From assembly GCA_027886925.1 (NCBI GenBank), contig JAPCJN010000019.1:3029-11586 (forward strand): DNA of 8,558 bases. Direction: 5' to 3'. The position numbers were made by a program, and so were the translations under genes. Of this stretch, positions 1-7,574 are shown piece by piece (position 1 is the first letter of the stretch; each line of letters opens with the position of its first letter). The notes beneath the pieces are model-generated. The model was not told where the DNA came from, did no database searches, and saw only the letters and a program-made list of their open reading frames with translations. This stretch comes from Nitrososphaerota archaeon. Its GTDB lineage: Archaea > Thermoproteota > Nitrososphaeria > Nitrososphaerales > UBA183.

Positions 1-292
1 TGTCAGCGGCCTCGACGTTCGTGGCGCCGATGTCGTTTAGCTTGACGTCCGCTATCAAGGGAAGGCCCTTTGAACGGCAGGCGTCGTCGAGCGTGCCCAG
101 CCCAAGTACGCCCGATGGGAGCAACAGGTGCCAGTTGACCTTGACCGCGACGATGCTCTCCCCGAGAAGGGAGACGAGCCGAGACGCCCTCTCGACCCTG
201 GTCCCATAGGGACCGTCGACGTCCGCGGCGAATATTATCCTGCTATTCGCCTTTCTTGATGTCGATTCGAGCCAATCGCCCAGCTGCCTCAC
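1..292 (-). CDS. pyrF: Orotidine 5'-phosphate decarboxylase, N-terminal part (runs off the window's left edge)
   Basis: Only the first 97 codons are visible; the gene continues to the left. The family decarboxylates OMP to UMP, the last step of de novo pyrimidine synthesis, in the cytoplasm. The family pattern is clear: a first-strand Asp (FAADVDG, D24), a strand with a conserved Lys (VAVKVNW, K51) and the catalytic D-x-K-x-x-D motif (ADVKLNDIGAT; D82, K84, D87). The start is GTG at 292-290. It overlaps the TGA of the upstream gene in a GTGA (4-nt) overlap, so translation is probably coupled and the two genes form an operon. This start leaves a usual-length N-terminus before the first barrel strand, and no nearer upstream in-frame start is evident. 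The phosphate-binding C-terminal half is not visible, so intactness cannot be judged. Confidence 0.9.
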   Translation of the reverse strand, partial: MRQLGDWLESTSRKANSRIIFAADVDGPYGTRVERASRLVSLLGESIVAVKVNWHLLLPSGVLGLGTLDDACRSKGLPLIADVKLNDIGATNVEAAD

Positions 293-990
293 TTGAACTC
301 TACCAGCGGGTGTTTCTCTTTCAGCTTGATGACCTTGACATAGATCGAGCCGTGCTCGTCGATCCGCTTGCTGAAGGCGGTGTCGGCGAGCCTCGAAGAC
401 GAATACCTGAGAAAGCCTGAGGGCGGCTCGATGTCGAGCCGCGAATAGAAGAAGAGAGAGGCCTCCTCGAAATCGTCGAGCCTCGCGAAGCAGCCCGTTA
501 TCCAGGAGCTGCCGTTCTTGAACGAGTAGAGGGGCAGCGGCGGCTCATCGTAGAGCATCTTGTAGGAAGCTATCTTCATGAGGTTCGACAGGTTCGAGAC
601 TTCGGCCGCCCAGAACCGCTGCTTGAACCCGGACTTTGGTTCCATGACCTTGGGGAGCTTCAGCACGTGGACTATGGGGGCGTACATGAACGACGCGTTG
701 TTCGCCCCATCGACCAGCTGGGCTTCCTCCGTCTCGCCCGTGCTCCTGTATGCGAGGAACTCTCCTCCATTCTCCGACTCAAAGTAGTAGAATATCGGGA
801 TGCCCATGAACAGGTCGGTCTGGACTGCCAGCCTGTACTTGCCGTCCTTCTGTGTCATGAAAATCGGGAACGGCGCCCTCTCGAAGGCGCAAGCCAGGCG
901 CCCCAGATCCGTAAGGGTCTCAAGCCCGACGAAACATGCGCCGACGGCCCTGCCCCTGCCGCCTCCCTCGTTTTTCGCCCTTGTCGACAA
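289..990 (-). CDS. Uncharacterised protein coupled to pyrF
   Basis: I do not recognise this family. From the TTG at 990 the product is 233 aa, apparently soluble, with no signal peptide or membrane segment. It is rich in aromatic residues (for example IPIFYYFESE near residues 64-73 and SLFFYSRLDIEPP near 178-190), suggesting a mixed alpha/beta fold. It has three Cys (19, 34, 167) but no metal-binding spacing. The frame stays open to an upstream TTG at 1074 (261 aa). I prefer 990 because an AT-rich TATA-like box (1015-1023) lies about 29 nt upstream, right for a leaderless or near-leaderless archaeal mRNA, and the extra 28 residues are basic and unlike a domain. A start at 1074 would also overlap the divergent gene that begins at 1055. 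Its stop overlaps the pyrF start by 4 nt, so a role linked to pyrimidine metabolism is possible but only inferred. Confidence 0.7.
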   Translation of the reverse strand: MSTRAKNEGGGRGRAVGACFVGLETLTDLGRLACAFERAPFPIFMTQKDGKYRLAVQTDLFMGIPIFYYFESENGGEFLAYRSTGETEEAQLVDGANNASFMYAPIVHVLKLPKVMEPKSGFKQRFWAAEVSNLSNLMKIASYKMLYDEPPLPLYSFKNGSSWITGCFARLDDFEEASLFFYSRLDIEPPSGFLRYSSSRLADTAFSKRIDEHGSIYVKVIKLKEKHPLVEFK

Positions 991-1014
991 ACTTCTGTGC
1001 TCGCGCTGCCTGGT

Positions 1015-1025
1015 CTTTAATAATG
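1015..1025. promoter_or_regulatory. Shared AT-rich TATA-like element between divergent genes
   Basis: The block CTTTAATAATG (plus strand) is the only AT-rich stretch between the minus gene starting at 990 and the plus gene starting at 1055. Read on the minus strand it is ATTATTAAAG, centred about 29 nt before the TTG at 990. Read on the plus strand it is TTTAATAAT, centred about 36 nt before the TTG at 1055. Both spacings suit an archaeal TATA box with little or no leader. One element may serve both directions; this is inferred from position only. Confidence 0.4.
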
Positions 1026-1054
1026 TTCGCAATTCAGGAAGCCAAAGTTTCCAT

Positions 1055-1492
1055 TTGGCCCACGTTCGCGTCAAGGGAGGAGGCGCTCTCGGGGAGTCAG
1101 AACTCGTAAGGTTCCGAGAGGAGGCCTCCTCTCTGAGCGCGAAACTGGCAGAGTCAACTTCCTCCGCTCAGCCTCCCGACGACACCGCGATCTGGAAGGT
1201 CTATGCGAAGACTGAGAAGCTGATCGCCGTCTTAAAGTTCAGAATCGAGTACGAGGCCCCGGGGAGGTTCGCAAAGCTCCCCGCGACGAGCGAGGAGAAG
1301 AAGCTCCTGGAAGACGCGCTGAGGTCTCTGGCTATGTCCGCGGAGGACATCTCCTCCCACCGTCTCAAGGAGGCGGTGGAGTCCCTGAGAGATGCACGGA
1401 ACAACCTTCGCGCCTATCTCATCCTCAAGAGGAAGTCCTCGCTAAAGGCCCATCGGGACGCAAGGAAAAAGAGCGCCTCGAAGGTCGCTTGA
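1055..1492 (+). CDS. Uncharacterised small basic helical protein
   Basis: No family recognised. From TTG at 1055 the product is 145 aa and mostly predicted helix. A charged N-terminal helix (about residues 14-35) and a Ser/Pro/Asp linker (35-44) come first. A core helix pair follows (about 45-65 and 78-125, including IWKVYAKTEKLIAVLKFR), then a Lys/Arg/Ser-rich tail (125-145) suited to nucleic-acid or ribosome contact. There is no Cys and no membrane segment. The frame is open upstream to about 800, but that part lies antisense to the 289-990 gene and reads as non-protein-like. TTG 1055 is the only start codon after the promoter element, though with no clear Shine-Dalgarno. The gene ends 5 bp from the stop of the convergent eL22-like gene. 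Helical content and length are seen; any function would be a guess. Confidence 0.6.
   Translation: MAHVRVKGGGALGESELVRFREEASSLSAKLAESTSSAQPPDDTAIWKVYAKTEKLIAVLKFRIEYEAPGRFAKLPATSEEKKLLEDALRSLAMSAEDISSHRLKEAVESLRDARNNLRAYLILKRKSSLKAHRDARKKSASKVA
1461..1473 (-). terminator. Possible T-tract terminator for the DUF373-uppS-eL22 operon
   Basis: On the minus strand CTCTTTTTCCTTG begins 25 nt past the TAG of the eL22-like gene. Archaeal RNA polymerase can stop at T-rich tracts without a hairpin. The tract is the antisense of the AAG/AAA lysine codons in the tail of the convergent gene, so it may exist only because of those codons. Confidence 0.3.
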
Positions 1493-1497
1493 ACGGA

Positions 1498-1932
1498 CTA
1501 GCTCTTCTTTTCGGTTGTTTCCTGGGTCTTTGACTCTTCTTCGGTATTCTTTGAGACTTGTGGGGTGGTTTCCTTCTCGGTCTCCTCATCGGAGGCCTTC
1601 TTCTCCTCCTTCTTCCCCTTTGCCTTCTTTTCCTCTTCTTCCTCCTCCTCGCCGTAGCCTTCGAGCTCCACGAGCCTGAGCTCGCCGCTCTCCACCAGGA
1701 CCCTGTAATCTGACCTGATCTTTTCTATGCTGAGGAAGCGCTTGATGTAGGTCTTTACGTGCCTGGAGCGGAGCCCTTTCTTCATCGACGAATCGTCGAC
1801 GTTGAGCTCGCCGCCTCCTACCTCAGGTTTCGCGCCAATTCTAGGCTCGAGAAATGCTGCCAAATCGTCGCCTCTGTCCTTCAGCGTGCCTAGGAGGATC
1901 TTCATGCTCTTTCGGTGCACCTCCTTAGCCAT
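1498..1932 (-). CDS. eL22-like ribosomal protein with long acidic/lysine-rich tail
   Basis: A 144-aa protein whose first ~92 residues line up in order with eukaryotic ribosomal protein eL22 (L22e). Shared blocks are FLEPRI (eL22: FLQERI) at 27-32, a GGG turn at 39-41, KTYIKRFL (eL22: KKYLKK) at 60-67, IRSDYRVLV (eL22: LRDWLRVVA) at 72-80, and ELRLVELEG followed by a run of seven Glu at 95-101. eL22 itself ends in an acidic tail; here the tail is extended to about 50 residues of Glu/Lys/Thr/Ser. In eukaryotes eL22 is a large-subunit protein that binds rRNA. The comparison is from memory of the eukaryotic sequence, so homology is likely but unconfirmed. The gene lies 13 nt after the uppS stop on the same strand. 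ATG 1932 is the longest start; an ATG at codon 10 (1905) is a realistic alternative, giving 135 aa. It could instead be an unrelated small basic RNA-binding protein. Confidence 0.7.
   Translation of the reverse strand: MAKEVHRKSMKILLGTLKDRGDDLAAFLEPRIGAKPEVGGGELNVDDSSMKKGLRSRHVKTYIKRFLSIEKIRSDYRVLVESGELRLVELEGYGEEEEEEEKKAKGKKEEKKASDEETEKETTPQVSKNTEEESKTQETTEKKS
1502..1520 (+). terminator. Possible T-rich terminator for the 1055-1492 gene
   Basis: Starting 9 nt after the TGA at 1492 the plus strand reads CTCTTCTTTTCGGTTGTTT, and pyrimidine-rich sequence continues to about 1640. This suits archaeal U-tract termination. The sequence is the complement of the Lys/Glu codons in the tail of the convergent eL22-like gene, so the reading is positional only. 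Confidence 0.3.
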
Positions 1933-1935
1933 GTC

Positions 1936-1942
1936 ATTATAA
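1936..1942 (-). promoter_or_regulatory. TATA-like box before the eL22-like gene
   Basis: TTATAAT on the minus strand lies in the 13-nt gap between uppS and the eL22-like gene. It is too close to ATG 1932 to drive a transcript that starts before it. It is about 34 nt before the ATG of codon 10 (1905), so it could give a separate short transcript from that start. AT-rich sequence at a stop codon is also common by chance. Confidence 0.25.
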
Positions 1943-1945
1943 CGG

Positions 1946-2728
1946 TTATCTTCCCATCCTCCTCTGCCTCCTTTGGAACGTCCTCACAGCCCTGAGGAGG
2001 TCTATCTTCCTGAATGCGGGCCAGTAGACGTCGAGGAAGACGAGCTCGCTGTACGCGCCCTGCCACAGGAGGAACCCGCTCATCCTCTCCTCTCCTGAGG
2101 TCCTGATTATGAGGTCGGGCTCTGGGTTGCGCAGATACGCCGTGTAGAGCCTCCTCGAGATGGTCTCCTCGGTTATGTCCTGCGGAGCCAAGCTCCCCTT
2201 CTTGACGTCCTCAGCGATGTTCCTCACCGTGTCCGTGATCTCCATCCTTCCCCCGTACGCTATCGCGATGTTGAGGTAGTGGCCCTTGAAGTTCTCAGTC
2301 TTTGCCTCCACTTCGTCCAGGATGTCCCTCATCGATGAAGGGAGAAGGTCAAGCTTCCCGATGGCCTTCACCTTCACCTGATACCTGTAGATCCTCTGGT
2401 CCGTCAGGAGCCTCTTGAGCCTCTCCTCTATGAGGCGAAACAGCTCCAGGACCTCCTCCGAGGTCCGCTGCAGGTTCTCCGTGGAGAGAACGTAGAGCGT
2501 TATCGACTCTATCCCAATCTCGTGGCACCAGTCGAGGAGTCTCTCCACGACGTCCGCGCCTTGCGTATGTCCCAGGTCGACGGTGAGCCTTCGGTTCTGC
2601 GCCCACCTCCTGTTCCCGTCAAGGATGATGCCGATGTGGTTAGGGATCGGCCCGTCCCGTATCTGAGAATTCAGCCTGCTCTCGTAGAGCTTGTACGCTC
2701 CGAGAGTACGTGCAACCGCGTCCAGCAC
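1946..2728 (-). CDS. uppS: Polyprenyl diphosphate synthase (cis-prenyltransferase, UppS family)
   Basis: The enzyme adds isopentenyl diphosphate in cis to an allylic primer to make the long polyprenyl carrier lipid used for N-glycosylation and cell-surface glycans. It acts at the cytoplasmic face of the membrane. All family motifs are present in the 260-aa product: HIGIILDGNRRWA (31-43, catalytic Asp37), GHTQGAD (53-59), LSTENLQR (81-88), AYGGR (157-161) and RTSGEERMSGFLLWQ (209-223), followed by YSEL and YWPAF. Length is normal. The frame is open upstream to 3412, but that part is antisense-like shadow of the DUF373 gene. GTG at 2728 gives the usual short N-terminal helix before the first motif. 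It begins 5 nt after the DUF373 stop, with AGGA about 9 nt upstream. In archaea the product is usually a shorter dolichol-type chain rather than strictly undecaprenyl, so the symbol describes the family, not chain length. Confidence 0.93.
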   Translation of the reverse strand: MLDAVARTLGAYKLYESRLNSQIRDGPIPNHIGIILDGNRRWAQNRRLTVDLGHTQGADVVERLLDWCHEIGIESITLYVLSTENLQRTSEEVLELFRLIEERLKRLLTDQRIYRYQVKVKAIGKLDLLPSSMRDILDEVEAKTENFKGHYLNIAIAYGGRMEITDTVRNIAEDVKKGSLAPQDITEETISRRLYTAYLRNPEPDLIIRTSGEERMSGFLLWQGAYSELVFLDVYWPAFRKIDLLRAVRTFQRRQRRMGR

Positions 2729-2733
2729 GGCCG

Positions 2734-3906
2734 TCAGTCCTGACGTTCCTGCTGCCCTTCGGCGATTGGTGAGTTTGGCCCCGGCGACACTGATGCAGGT
2801 GGCCTGCTGCGAAGTCGAGTGTAGAGGGTTACCACCACGAGGAATATCCCGGCTAGCCCGAGGAACACGTAGGTGATTAAGAGATAGGTCGAGGTGCTCT
2901 CTCCTGTGATCAGGAAGTTGCTGAACTGGCCCATGGGGAAATAGAGCAAGCTGAGGACTATCAAGCCCACGACGCTCCTCCAGGCCCTCGTGCTCCCCCT
3001 CAGGAACTGGGTCAGGAGGGTTCCGGCGAGGTAGACCGCGATCGCGGCCCAGACGAGTAGCAGTGATCCCTGAAGGTAGTATCCGACCAAGTTGTCTCCG
3101 TAGGAGAGAAAGAGCAGCGGCTTGCTGCTGACCTGAGCCACAAGCTGGGGGGCGGAGTTCTCCATGTATGAAAAGCCACTGGAGAGGCCCACGATGAGGA
3201 TGAGGATGCTCGCGGGGATAGAGAATAGGCGCATGTAACCGTAGGGTCTCTGGCTGAGCATGGTCGCAAAGAACCTGTCGATGTTGAAGCCCCGCACGAG
3301 GAATGTGGCGCCGAGGATGAGCAACACGGCGAGCAGCGCCTCGTAGCCCGCTCCGAACAGCGCCAGTACTCCGACAAGGAGCAGGATCACCCCCGGAATC
3401 CCGATCGCCCATTTCGAGTATCTGGGATCGAAGACCAACATCCTAAGATACCTGCCCAGCACCATGTAGTTCTCCTCGACCGTCCTGCTGTGCTTCACGA
3501 CTATCCTCCTCACGGAAACTATCGGCTTGAGCGGCTGGAGGATGGGGATGACCAGCTCGTCCTCGGCGCCGTCGCTGATGAGGACTAGGCCCGAATACTT
3601 TTGCTTTGCAAGGAGCTCCTCTACCTCCCGCCTGATCTTCCTGTCGGCTTGGAAGTCGCCGTCCTTGATTCCGCAGACGGCGCCGACGTCGCACAGCAAG
3701 TCCTCGCCGGCGAGCGCGTCGTATTCCTTGACGGCCGCGAAGAGCGCGTTGGCGTCAGCCTCCTCTGGATCGGCCACTGCGAGGCTGGTAGCGGCTGACA
3801 TGACCGCCTCCCTTCCCCAGATTGGAGTTCGGACGCGCGTCTTGCGCTCAAGGTCTCCATCTCGATCCACGGCCAAGATCAAGAAGCGCTCTTGCCGACC
3901 CGACAT
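2734..3906 (-). CDS. DUF373 family membrane protein
   Basis: This matches the archaeal DUF373 family (COG2237, predicted membrane protein; function unknown). The 390-aa product has a soluble N-terminal domain of about 160 residues, opening with the family signature LAVDRDGDLERK (11-22). It includes GLVLISDGAEDE (106-117) and a strand-rich region VSVRRIVVKHS (130-140). About six membrane segments follow, near 166-184, 188-205, 227-247, 276-298, 310-334 and 340-362, then a short Pro/Ser-rich tail. The frame is open to 4098, but the start is taken as ATG 3906. It gives the normal N-terminus (a few residues before the LAVDRDGD strand), and a TATA-like box at 3938-3946 is about 36 nt upstream. ATG 3930 would lie upstream of the expected transcript start. 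It is the first gene of the operon with uppS, so a role in lipid-carrier or envelope biology is plausible but inferred. Confidence 0.88.
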   Translation of the reverse strand: MSGRQERFLILAVDRDGDLERKTRVRTPIWGREAVMSAATSLAVADPEEADANALFAAVKEYDALAGEDLLCDVGAVCGIKDGDFQADRKIRREVEELLAKQKYSGLVLISDGAEDELVIPILQPLKPIVSVRRIVVKHSRTVEENYMVLGRYLRMLVFDPRYSKWAIGIPGVILLLVGVLALFGAGYEALLAVLLILGATFLVRGFNIDRFFATMLSQRPYGYMRLFSIPASILILIVGLSSGFSYMENSAPQLVAQVSSKPLLFLSYGDNLVGYYLQGSLLLVWAAIAVYLAGTLLTQFLRGSTRAWRSVVGLIVLSLLYFPMGQFSNFLITGESTSTYLLITYVFLGLAGIFLVVVTLYTRLRSRPPASVSPGPNSPIAEGQQERQD

Positions 3907-4022
3907 GCTTCTCTCTGGTGTAGAATCCATCTGCTCGATACTTAAGTGGTTCCTCCGGAAGGCAGGTTTTCGACGGGAAGAAAGACAGAATAGAAGGTTC
4001 CAATACAACTGGGCGAAGACCA
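3907..4022. other. Divergent intergenic region between DUF373 and acyl-CoA synthetase genes
   Basis: This 116-bp gap carries promoters for both directions. The minus-strand TATA-like box is annotated separately. For the plus-strand gene I see only a weak AT-rich stretch, AGAATAGAAG at 3987-3996, about 30 nt before TTG 4023. The hexamer GGTTCC occurs twice (3948-3953 and 3996-4001), which may be chance. No RNA gene is apparent. Confidence 0.4.
3938..3946 (-). promoter_or_regulatory. TATA-like box of the DUF373-uppS-eL22 operon
   Basis: CTTAAGTAT on the minus strand is centred 36 nt before ATG 3906, predicting a leader of about 10 nt. It is one of the few AT-rich stretches in the gap, which supports both the operon start and the chosen start codon. 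Confidence 0.45.
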
Positions 4023-5765
4023 TTGCTGGACGAGCGTCCTTGGCGGAAGGCTTGGGCCAGGCATGTCGTTGAAAGGTGGGACGCCCAACCTGAGCCAAAG
4101 CCGCTTTTCGACCTGGTTTCGAGCAGCCCGCCCCGGGACGCCGGACGCACCTGCATCAGGTTCATGGGGACGAGGCTCACCTACGGCCAGGTGGACGAAC
4201 TCTCTTCGAGGTTCGCTCAGGCCCTCCTGTCTCTCGGCCTCGAGCGGGGCGAAAGAGTCGCCCTTTTCATGCCCAACATGCCCCAATTCATCCTGTCCTA
4301 CTTTGGCATCTTGAAGGCGGGAGGGATCGTCGTCCCCTGCAGCCCGCTCTACAAAGGACACGAGCTCGAGCATCAGCTCAAGGATTCGGGCGCATCGTTC
4401 CTCGTCGCGGCGAACGACGTCGTGAAGGGTAACGACCTCTTCGCCAGCGTGGAGGCCTGCAGCGAGAAGACGGGCGTCCGCATCATAACCGCCAGCCTCA
4501 CAGACTACCTTCCGCCAGCGAAGCGCGCCCTTGCGAGATTGGCCGGCGTCAAGAACGTCAAGAGGGCTGGCGTGGCGGCCGAGTTCAAAGACCTTGTCGC
4601 TAGGCACCCGCCACTAGAAGGGGTTGCGAAGGTGGACCCCGCCCGGGATGTGGCGGTCCTGCAGTACACGGGAGGCACGACCGGGATTGCGAAAGGGGCG
4701 ATGCTCACGCACGCGAACCTTTACCTCAACGCGGCGGTCACTTGTAGCTGGCTCCCGCTCGCCGAAGACGACATTGCGCTGGGCGTCCTCCCGTTCTTCC
4801 ACGTCTACGGGATGACCGCTGCGATGAACGCGCCTCTCTTCGCGGGCGGGTCGATAGTGGTCCTGCCCAGGTTCGAGATAGAGTCCGTCATGAAGACCAT
4901 CCAGAAGGAGAAGATAACCTCATTCTGCGGCGTCCCCACCATGTACGTGGCGATCATAAACCACCCCTCCGTCTCGAAGTTCAGTCTCAGGACCGTCCGT
5001 GGATGCATCTCAGGAGGAGCGGCCCTTCCTGCGGCTGTAAGGGAGGGTTTCTCCAACCTCACCGGCGGGAGGCTCGTGGAGGGTTATGGGCTGAGCGAGT
5101 CGAGCCCGGTGACCCACTGCAACCCTATAGGAGAGGGCGCCAACGTGAGGGAGGGCTCGATAGGCATCCCAATCCCTTTCACCGATGCACGGGTCGTCGA
5201 CATGGACGACCCTTCAAAGGTGGTGGCCGTAGGCGAGGTCGGCGAGCTCGCAGTAATGGGCCCTCAGGTCATGCTGGGCTACTGGAACCGGATGGACGAG
5301 ACCAACAAGGTCCTTTCGAAGGACGGTTGGCTGCTGACGGGTGATATCGCTAGAATGGAGGCGGACGGCTATTTCTTCATCGTCGATAGAAAGAAGGACA
5401 TGATCAACGTCTCGGGCCTCAAGGTCTATCCGAGGGAGGTCGAGGAGCTACTCTTCACTCACGCCGCCGTGAAGGAAGCCGCCGTGGTCGGGATGCCAGA
5501 CGACTATAGGGGCGAGTCGGTGGAGGCGTACATCGTCCTGAAGCCTGAGAGCAGAGGCAAGGTGAGCGAGGGCGAGATCATAGAGTTCTGCAGACACAAC
5601 ATCGCTTCCTACAAGGCCCCGCGGAAGGTCGTCTTTGTCGATGACCTGCCGAAGAGTCTCATTGGCAAGGTGCTGCGAAGGCGGCTCAGAGAAGGCGGCG
5701 CTTCCTCGAGGGTGGTCATCGCTTCCGATCCAAAACCCGCCTCCGGCGCTAGCAGCTCTCGATGA
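4023..5765 (+). CDS. AMP-forming acyl-CoA synthetase (long-chain fatty acid-CoA ligase type)
   Basis: A 580-aa member of the ANL adenylating superfamily. It activates a carboxylic acid with ATP to an acyl-AMP and transfers it to CoA. Motifs in order: P-loop LQYTGGTTGIAKG (213-225), FFHVYGM (258-264), GVPTMY (303-308), EGYGLSES (353-360), GWLLTGDIA (435-443), VDRKKDMINVSGLKVYP (454-470) and PKSLIGKVLRR (543-553) with catalytic Lys549. Layout and length resemble fatty-acyl-CoA ligases (FadD-like), but the sequence alone does not fix chain length or substrate. TTG at 4023 is the first start in frame and gives the typical Trp-rich N-terminal helix before PLFDLV. No strong Shine-Dalgarno is present. 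The last ~20 residues after Lys549 are an Ala/Ser-rich tail, and its final codons overlap the convergent thiolase gene by 17 bp. Together with that thiolase it suggests acyl-chain use. Confidence 0.9.
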   Translation: MLDERPWRKAWARHVVERWDAQPEPKPLFDLVSSSPPRDAGRTCIRFMGTRLTYGQVDELSSRFAQALLSLGLERGERVALFMPNMPQFILSYFGILKAGGIVVPCSPLYKGHELEHQLKDSGASFLVAANDVVKGNDLFASVEACSEKTGVRIITASLTDYLPPAKRALARLAGVKNVKRAGVAAEFKDLVARHPPLEGVAKVDPARDVAVLQYTGGTTGIAKGAMLTHANLYLNAAVTCSWLPLAEDDIALGVLPFFHVYGMTAAMNAPLFAGGSIVVLPRFEIESVMKTIQKEKITSFCGVPTMYVAIINHPSVSKFSLRTVRGCISGGAALPAAVREGFSNLTGGRLVEGYGLSESSPVTHCNPIGEGANVREGSIGIPIPFTDARVVDMDDPSKVVAVGEVGELAVMGPQVMLGYWNRMDETNKVLSKDGWLLTGDIARMEADGYFFIVDRKKDMINVSGLKVYPREVEELLFTHAAVKEAAVVGMPDDYRGESVEAYIVLKPESRGKVSEGEIIEFCRHNIASYKAPRKVVFVDDLPKSLIGKVLRRRLREGGASSRVVIASDPKPASGASSSR

Positions 5766-6978: not shown

Positions 6979-7545
6979 CTACGATCGGACGAGGGGGAGC
7001 TTCCGCGGCTTCGCGACCCTCGACGCGTAGAAGATGATCAGCGGGGCCAGGGTCGCGCCGGTAACGAGATCGCTCACCTCGTGGGCCACCATGAAGGGCA
7101 GGCCGAAAACCTCCGTTGTAATGAGGTTCTGAAACGAGATCGACGGCCAGAACGCCAGCAGTGCGGTTCCCGCGTTCGTCTCCAAATCCCAAAGAAACGC
7201 GCAGAGGGCGAGGACAGCCCCCAGGTAGAAGTTGCGTGCGGAGAGCCTGGCACCTCCTTCTCTCCAAATCCTGGATGCCCCCCAGCCCGCTAGCGCGAAA
7301 AGCACCTCGCCGGCGACCAGAAAAGGGATGATGTAGCCACCGAAGCCATAGGGGCTGATCGTGCCCCAGATCAACTCCGAGAGGACCCCGACATACACTC
7401 CCGTTTGTAGCCCAAAGACGAAAGCGACCGCGAAGACTATCGGGTCCACCAGCTTCACGTTCGGGAAATCTGTCAAGGCTAGGTCAGAACCGACTGACAG
7501 GGCCGTGAAAGTCGCGATGACCGCGAGGTCTCTCGTCACCGTCAT
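6979..7545 (-). CDS. Small integral membrane protein resembling an ECF transporter S component
   Basis: A 188-aa hydrophobic protein with five to six predicted membrane segments, near 6-24, 33-50, 50-66, 70-90, 105-122 and 150-176. The size, the small-residue-rich first helix (ATFTALSVGS, 11-20), the loop DFPNVKLVDPIVF (26-38) and GVYVGVLSELIWGTISPYGFGG (49-70) resemble substrate-binding S components of energy-coupling-factor vitamin transporters. This is recognition of style, not a firm family match. The substrate is unknown, and no EcfA ATPase or EcfT partner is in the window. The frame is open to a TTG at 7566, but ATG 7545 is preferred because the TATA-like box at 7577-7584 lies 35 nt upstream of it and only 14 nt from the TTG. 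It is divergent from the TrmB-family gene, which may control it. The alternative is simply an uncharacterised membrane protein. Confidence 0.6.
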   Translation of the reverse strand: MTVTRDLAVIATFTALSVGSDLALTDFPNVKLVDPIVFAVAFVFGLQTGVYVGVLSELIWGTISPYGFGGYIIPFLVAGEVLFALAGWGASRIWREGGARLSARNFYLGAVLALCAFLWDLETNAGTALLAFWPSISFQNLITTEVFGLPFMVAHEVSDLVTGATLAPLIIFYASRVAKPRKLPLVRS

Positions 7546-7555
7546 CTTTTCTCGG

Positions 7556-7574
7556 TGGCTGGACAAACCAGCCA
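7556..7574. repeat. Perfect inverted repeat at the ECF-like gene's transcription start: candidate operator
   Basis: TGGCTGG and CCAGCCA form 7-bp perfect arms around the 5-bp spacer ACAAA. The repeat lies just downstream of the TATA-like box and covers the predicted transcription start, a common site for archaeal repressors. It does not match the TACT-N3-AGTA pattern I recall for some TrmB proteins. A short RNA hairpin is the alternative if transcription starts further upstream. Confidence 0.45.

Follow-up and report, generated by a model that had tools for sequence, protein, structure and literature searches.

Whether an archaeon of the order Nitrososphaerales encodes eL22, a protein of the eukaryotic large ribosomal subunit, is the question raised by a stretch of 8,558 nt (hereafter the window) from a soil-dwelling Nitrososphaerota archaeon (Nitrososphaerales; UBA183; assembly GCA_027886925.1, contig JAPCJN010000019.1, positions 3,029-11,586, forward strand). 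The original prediction had proposed an eL22-like protein of 144 amino acids (aa), encoded at 1498-1932 on the minus strand within an operon. That open reading frame (ORF) is indeed there and intact, and yields 144 aa if read from the ATG at 1932. Family profiles, the predicted structure and a gene neighbourhood held in common with Pfam-positive archaeal L22e all support the eL22 assignment, and we conclude that the gene is very probably an archaeal orthologue of eL22, in a Nitrososphaerales lineage that, judging from its relatives, is probably not ammonia-oxidising.

The assignment was carried by profiles of the family to which the window protein belongs, whose members have a long charged C-terminal tail. 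A profile of this tailed family with the tail included (A1) retrieved 28 distinct PDB sequences at E ≤ 10 (best E 5.3e-4), all of them eL22 or L22 by name except 8jiv_CU, which has an assembly name. Because the tail could inflate scores, a profile of the core only (A2) was also built, and it returned 25 sequences (best E 0.012) with eL22 as the sole family and the same one exception in name. A profile of 57 diverse archaeal members, Pfam-positive ones included (A4), reached a best E of 2.1e-8, and 57 of its best 60 matches were named eL22 or L22, the other 3 having gene or assembly names; such oddly named chains were taken as eL22 since their alignment resembles the rest. When the tailed core (A2) was aligned by hhalign with a profile of three short proteins from the phylum (L019, L020, L021) and their kin (A5), the probability was 96.7% with an E of 4.3e-10. 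The family profile is thus significantly related to eL22 by A1, by A4 and by the comparison of A2 with A5. Superposition of a predicted structure, which had been suggested as a check, gave the same answer, as residues 1-84 of the window model aligned with eL22, so that the eL22 fold extends across the whole domain.

Several results of the searches weigh against this assignment. The window protein alone gave no L22e match at E ≤ 10 in a Pfam hmmscan and so did not reach the gathering cut-off of L22e (PF01776), another check that had been proposed, this cut-off being a detection threshold and not a biological property. L22e was matched by only 4 of 21 tailed members (best E 0.0079), and single-sequence matches in PDB were non-significant (E 0.15-0.36). 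Among the genomes of 14 relatives scanned with Pfam L22e, only G003 yielded the family protein (E 0.077, below the cut-off), and sub-cut-off matches at E ≤ 10 were obtained from 5 of 14 control genomes as well. The E of 0.012 for the core-only profile is borderline when taken alone. NCBIfam, like Pfam, gave no useful match to the window protein; weak matches to presenilin, confined to the tail, and to PspC, spanning helix 2 to the tail, were set aside. The lack of a significant single-sequence Pfam match would also suit a different family that converged on a similar beta-alpha-beta-beta-alpha-beta arrangement with an acidic end, and many ribosomal proteins have this class of fold, according to the accessible text of a fold survey (PMC11354259). 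However, eL22 was the only PDB family listed in the searches with A1 and A2, and intermediate sequences lead from the window protein to Pfam-positive L22e, with a neighbour gene in common at part of the loci. We therefore regard convergence as highly improbable.

A scan of the phylum with A2 gave 5 matches in 299 genomes, namely the reference genome itself, L019, L020, L021 and L022. The last of these, a 454-aa frame (E 0.0095), was attributed to chance and dropped. The three short proteins exceed the Pfam L22e cut-off of 23.6 bits (27.0, 34.0 and 29.4 bits for L019, L020 and L021, respectively), and a search with A5 returned 2970 proteins at E ≤ 1, of which the best 120 all carry PF01776. Two organism-naming proteins among the A5 matches listed are called '60S ribosomal protein L22' from Bathyarchaeota/Bathyarchaeia (P0269, P0309), and are 66% and 80% identical to L027; other matches listed have JGI labels that read 'hypothetical' or are unrelated. 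On account of these two named proteins, the short loci of the phylum are probably largely of Bathyarchaeia. Short L22e proteins of this type (L019-L021, L023-L052) have a single core domain like that of the window protein, to which they are related by profile, but they are 86-99 aa long without the long tail and lie over the Pfam cut-off. Likewise, short eL22 proteins in the window's own order (L082-L113) have a median length of 88 aa, versus 153 for the tailed kind.

The genes around eL22 also connect these groups. Upstream of the window gene lie uppS, encoding a cis-prenyltransferase (1946-2740, minus strand, PF01255, E 2.3e-76, start uncertain), and a gene for a DUF373 membrane protein (2734-4098, minus strand, PF04123, E 2.4e-79), the true start of which may be further downstream. 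On the other side are a convergent ORF, which is the conserved 3′ neighbour of eL22 by synteny (1076-1492, plus strand, start uncertain), and ORF289m (289-1074, minus strand), which encodes a conserved protein with synteny and no Pfam family over the cut-off. Homologues of all four genes were found near eL22 in each of the 14 named tailed loci (L001-L014), which come from metagenome-assembled genomes titled Thaumarchaeota archaeon, Nitrososphaerales archaeon or archaeon, and uppS was at most about 110 nt upstream of eL22 in 12 of them. The short eL22 genes of the order resemble the window in their surroundings: in the fetched stretches of the 32 loci, uppS was present in 22, ORF289m in 20 and at least one of the two in 27, leaving 5 (L095, L096, L098, L099, L113) with neither. 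In L107, uppS and eL22 are separated by purA, and in L094 uppS is directly upstream without purA between. An iterated profile placed the convergent ORF beside eL22 in 25 of these 32 loci and in 10 of the 31 distinct phylum genomes with the Bathyarchaeia-type protein, counts that are uncorrected for contig ends; with a profile from the tailed loci only (E ≤ 1e-3, calculated for a small set of ORFs taken from these same loci) the numbers were 21 of 32 and 5 of 31, respectively. Orthology with recognised archaeal L22e is accordingly supported by neighbourhood in 10 of 31 genomes, or 5 of 31 by the stricter profile. The two Bathyarchaeia-type loci that were read differ from the window, where uppS is upstream, in having a gene for a PhoU-like DUF47 protein upstream of eL22 (a Pfam match in L019, by eye in L020).

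A protein search with residues 1-96 gave 184 homologues at E ≤ 0.01; among the best 120 of them, every readable name was 'hypothetical protein', in some cases with Nitrososphaerales or Thaumarchaeota as the source. With this many homologues and the conserved synteny, the gene is not a chance frame. Translation more likely begins with the ATG at 1905 than with that at 1932, because the position homologous to 1905 has a start codon in all 14 named loci (ATG in 6, TTG in 8), the database copy of the window protein is 135 aa long, and a TATA-like stretch precedes the homologous position in 15 of 15 sequences, as judged by eye. TTG is thus the apparent start codon in 8 of the 14 tailed genes. By this comparison, together with the profiles and the fold, the gene probably occupies 1498-1905 on the minus strand, stop codon included, and encodes 135 aa. 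The TATA-like element of the window, TTATAA (1937-1942, minus strand, upstream of the gene by eye), stops 4 nt short of the ATG at 1932 and may act as a promoter, in which case eL22 would seem to have one of its own. This qualifies the operon of the original prediction, which fits the 12 of 14 named loci where uppS shortly precedes eL22, but fits less well a gene under its own apparent promoter.

The predicted structure comprises a folded core at residues 1-83 (1657-1905, minus strand) with the order strand-helix-strand-strand-helix-strand-strand, for which the mean predicted local distance difference test (pLDDT) score was 89-95 in each 10-residue block of residues 1-80. Identity to eukaryotic eL22 (RPL22; PF01776) is 12-23% in the structural alignments shown. 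Compared with that protein, the window protein has no N-terminal extension and begins at the first strand, its model residue 1 aligning with residue 15-21 in many eL22 sequences, and it lacks the single-sequence Pfam match. The motifs on which the prediction was based (FLEPRI, GGG, KTYIKRF, DYRVLV and an EEEEEEE run) were all found, although only the closest relatives share GGG, others having SGD, SGG or SAD. Unlike this triplet, R-H-V-K-T-Y-I-K-R-F-L is conserved among relatives, and the invariant residues across 21 tailed members cluster in F18-L19-E20-P21-R22 and R48-H49-V50-K51-T52-Y53..K55-R56. The second cluster falls in basic helix 2 (residues 47-62, SRHVKTYIKRFLSIEK, at 1720-1767 on the minus strand), delimited by alignment and predicted structure. 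The 52 residues that follow the core (84-135, at 1501-1656, minus strand) form a charged tail of low pLDDT with 18 Glu, 12 Lys and 1 Asp (net -7), which differs from eukaryotic eL22. The long Glu/Lys tail that had been pointed out is therefore real, and by composition, lengths and tree it marks one clade; a tail-like extension was also seen in L102.

Helix 2 bears on what the protein might do. The accessible text of a mutational study of human L22 (PMC2668802) describes residues 88-93 as essential and 80-84 as contributory for RNA binding, and states that a protein lacking 120-128 still bound 28S (data not shown in that paper) and still localised to the nucleolus. In the window protein, R48-K62 is aligned with eL22 residues 81-95, which overlap the human RNA-binding cluster 80-93. 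Counted along an eL22 PDB sequence, R48, K51, K55 and R56 are aligned with human R81, K84, K88 and K89, and these four equivalents are invariant in the 21 tailed members. Other features count against a fully eL22-like role: K92 and K93, from the cluster most critical for RNA binding, are aligned with S59 and I60 and are thus non-basic, K80 falls in an insert without an aligned counterpart, and a Pfam scan of nine window ORFs found no other ribosomal-protein gene. Since four of the positions are basic, two are not and one falls in an insert, the RNA-binding face of eL22 appears, by alignment, to be partly kept. By analogy with the 60S subunit, the core would be anchored to 23S rRNA through basic helix 2, at the eL22 site on the outside of the 50S subunit, and the Glu/Lys tail would remain flexible at the ribosome surface.

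The gene product could instead be an RNA-binding protein derived from eL22 that is not a structural subunit but acts off the ribosome, for example by regulating mRNA or helping ribosomes to assemble. The accessible parts of two papers describe functions outside the ribosome for L22 of mammals and yeast (PMC3750023, PMC4838235), eL22 is absent from sister lineages, the family is matched two or three times in some phylum genomes, with a divergent kind among the matches, and no ribosomal-protein gene adjoins eL22 in the window. Yet every one of the 70 eL22-bearing genomes in the order sample has a single match, and the helix that binds rRNA in eL22 is strongly conserved, which makes an off-ribosome role unlikely. 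The divergent kind is a second eL22-like paralogue family (L149-L154, in phylum genomes G078, G237, G186 and G192). Its open frames, 115-133 aa long, begin with a conserved VDLGDL-like sequence, contain a helix with K(F/Y)(V/I/L)Y and end in SWGL, TWGL or HGW; the two members tested had no Pfam match.

The distribution of eL22 was broader than the prediction had supposed. Pfam L22e was over the cut-off in 45 of 398 phylum genomes, versus 0 of 14 control genomes, in addition to the proteins named as Bathyarchaeia. With A4, eL22 was detected in 45 of 300 phylum genomes and in 70 of 201 order genomes, a count that was identical with a further profile, A3, by which the 70 comprised 38 high-scoring tailed forms and 32 mostly shorter ones. 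AmoA was present in 108 of the 201 order genomes and never together with eL22, leaving 23 with neither. The zero overlap has a hypergeometric probability of 2e-34, which ignores kinship and may reflect one event. Since the genomes searched carry no completeness values, some absences of eL22 may be gaps. L22e matches in two AmoA-positive genomes (G368, 22.8 bits; G345, 19.8 bits) were rejected as chance, because they contain several stops and, for most of their extent, lie on the strand opposite long ORFs.

We looked up the neighbourhood of ORF289, the family of ORF289m (window 289-1074, minus strand; L107:3827-4537, plus strand; about 236 aa), in 20 order genomes without eL22, 14 of them AmoA-positive. 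It was found in 17 of the 20, with a pyrF homologue adjoining it in those 17, and in all 14 AmoA-positive genomes. No eL22 was detected around it in the 18 loci examined (best E 0.45); the three non-AmoA genomes with ORF289 (L131-L133) likewise lack eL22 there. Around ORF289 in the AmoA-positive genomes, purA was kept in 11 of 14, not being seen in L143, L145 and L147, and the convergent ORF, a small helical protein, was kept in 5 of 14. The distance between purA and ORF289 was about 1.1 kb in L141 and only about 66 nt in L134 and L142. Ammonia-oxidising relatives thus seem, from their genomes, to be without eL22.

In a FastTree tree of 57 cores, with a rooting chosen by us, the tailed forms were monophyletic (13 tips, support 0.86) within the sequences of the order (0.77), and the order's proteins had their nearest relatives in L019, L020 and L048, which belong to other parts of the phylum. 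The remaining phylum sequences were not one clade under this rooting, and several nodes were weakly supported. The simplest reading is that eL22 was inherited vertically, lost in ammonia oxidisers and provided with a long tail in one clade. The ancestor shared by Bathyarchaeia and Nitrososphaeria would already have had it, and the lineage leading to ammonia oxidisers would have lost it, a loss that may predate ammonia oxidation, while the tail would have been gained in the clade of the window. The patchy occurrence (70 of 201 order genomes, 45 of 300 phylum genomes) could also be explained by horizontal acquisition in separate archaeal lineages. However, the same convergent gene is beside eL22 in part of the phylum loci and most order loci, 11 of the 14 ammonia oxidisers examined retain flanking genes while lacking eL22, and the tree groups the order's proteins with the tailed forms inside and L019, L020 and L048 nearest. 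Horizontal acquisition thus appears to have a small chance of being correct.

Vertical inheritance with loss is part of a broader reading that we favour with moderate confidence: eL22 would be an ancestral archaeal ribosomal protein and not an invention of eukaryotes or Asgard archaea, with vertical descent into Bathyarchaeia and Nitrososphaeria and a single loss in the ancestor of ammonia oxidisers, and the long charged tail of one soil lineage would extend the surface of the large subunit. The protein would have been overlooked because the best-studied Thaumarchaeota lost it and the divergent form is below the Pfam threshold.

The window further contains a gene for a membrane protein (6979-7566, minus strand) with a weak match to the S component of an ECF-type riboflavin transporter (15.4 bits, cut-off 26.7).

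As far as the accessible text of the respective papers goes, a putative L22e was reported for Lokiarchaeum (PMC4571567), eL22 and eL28 were cited for some Asgard archaea (PMC8997704), and a 2024 fold survey listed eL22 as eukarya-specific (PMC11354259). By these published descriptions, Asgard eL22 resembles the window protein in being an archaeal eL22 homologue. A literature search, which covered broad queries in part and had subscription papers outside its reach, found nothing on eL22 in Bathyarchaeia or Nitrososphaeria, although the database name '60S ribosomal protein L22' already exists for Bathyarchaeia. The window protein is a new, divergent, tailed member of a known family, unannotated so far. 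If inheritance was vertical across Bathyarchaeia and part of Nitrososphaeria, the origin of eL22 moves back in archaeal evolution, and eL22 is weakened as a marker of kinship between Asgard archaea and eukaryotes. The distribution of eL22 in archaea would be informative to specialists, and its complementary occurrence with AmoA would represent a defined change of the ribosome near the branch to ammonia oxidisers.
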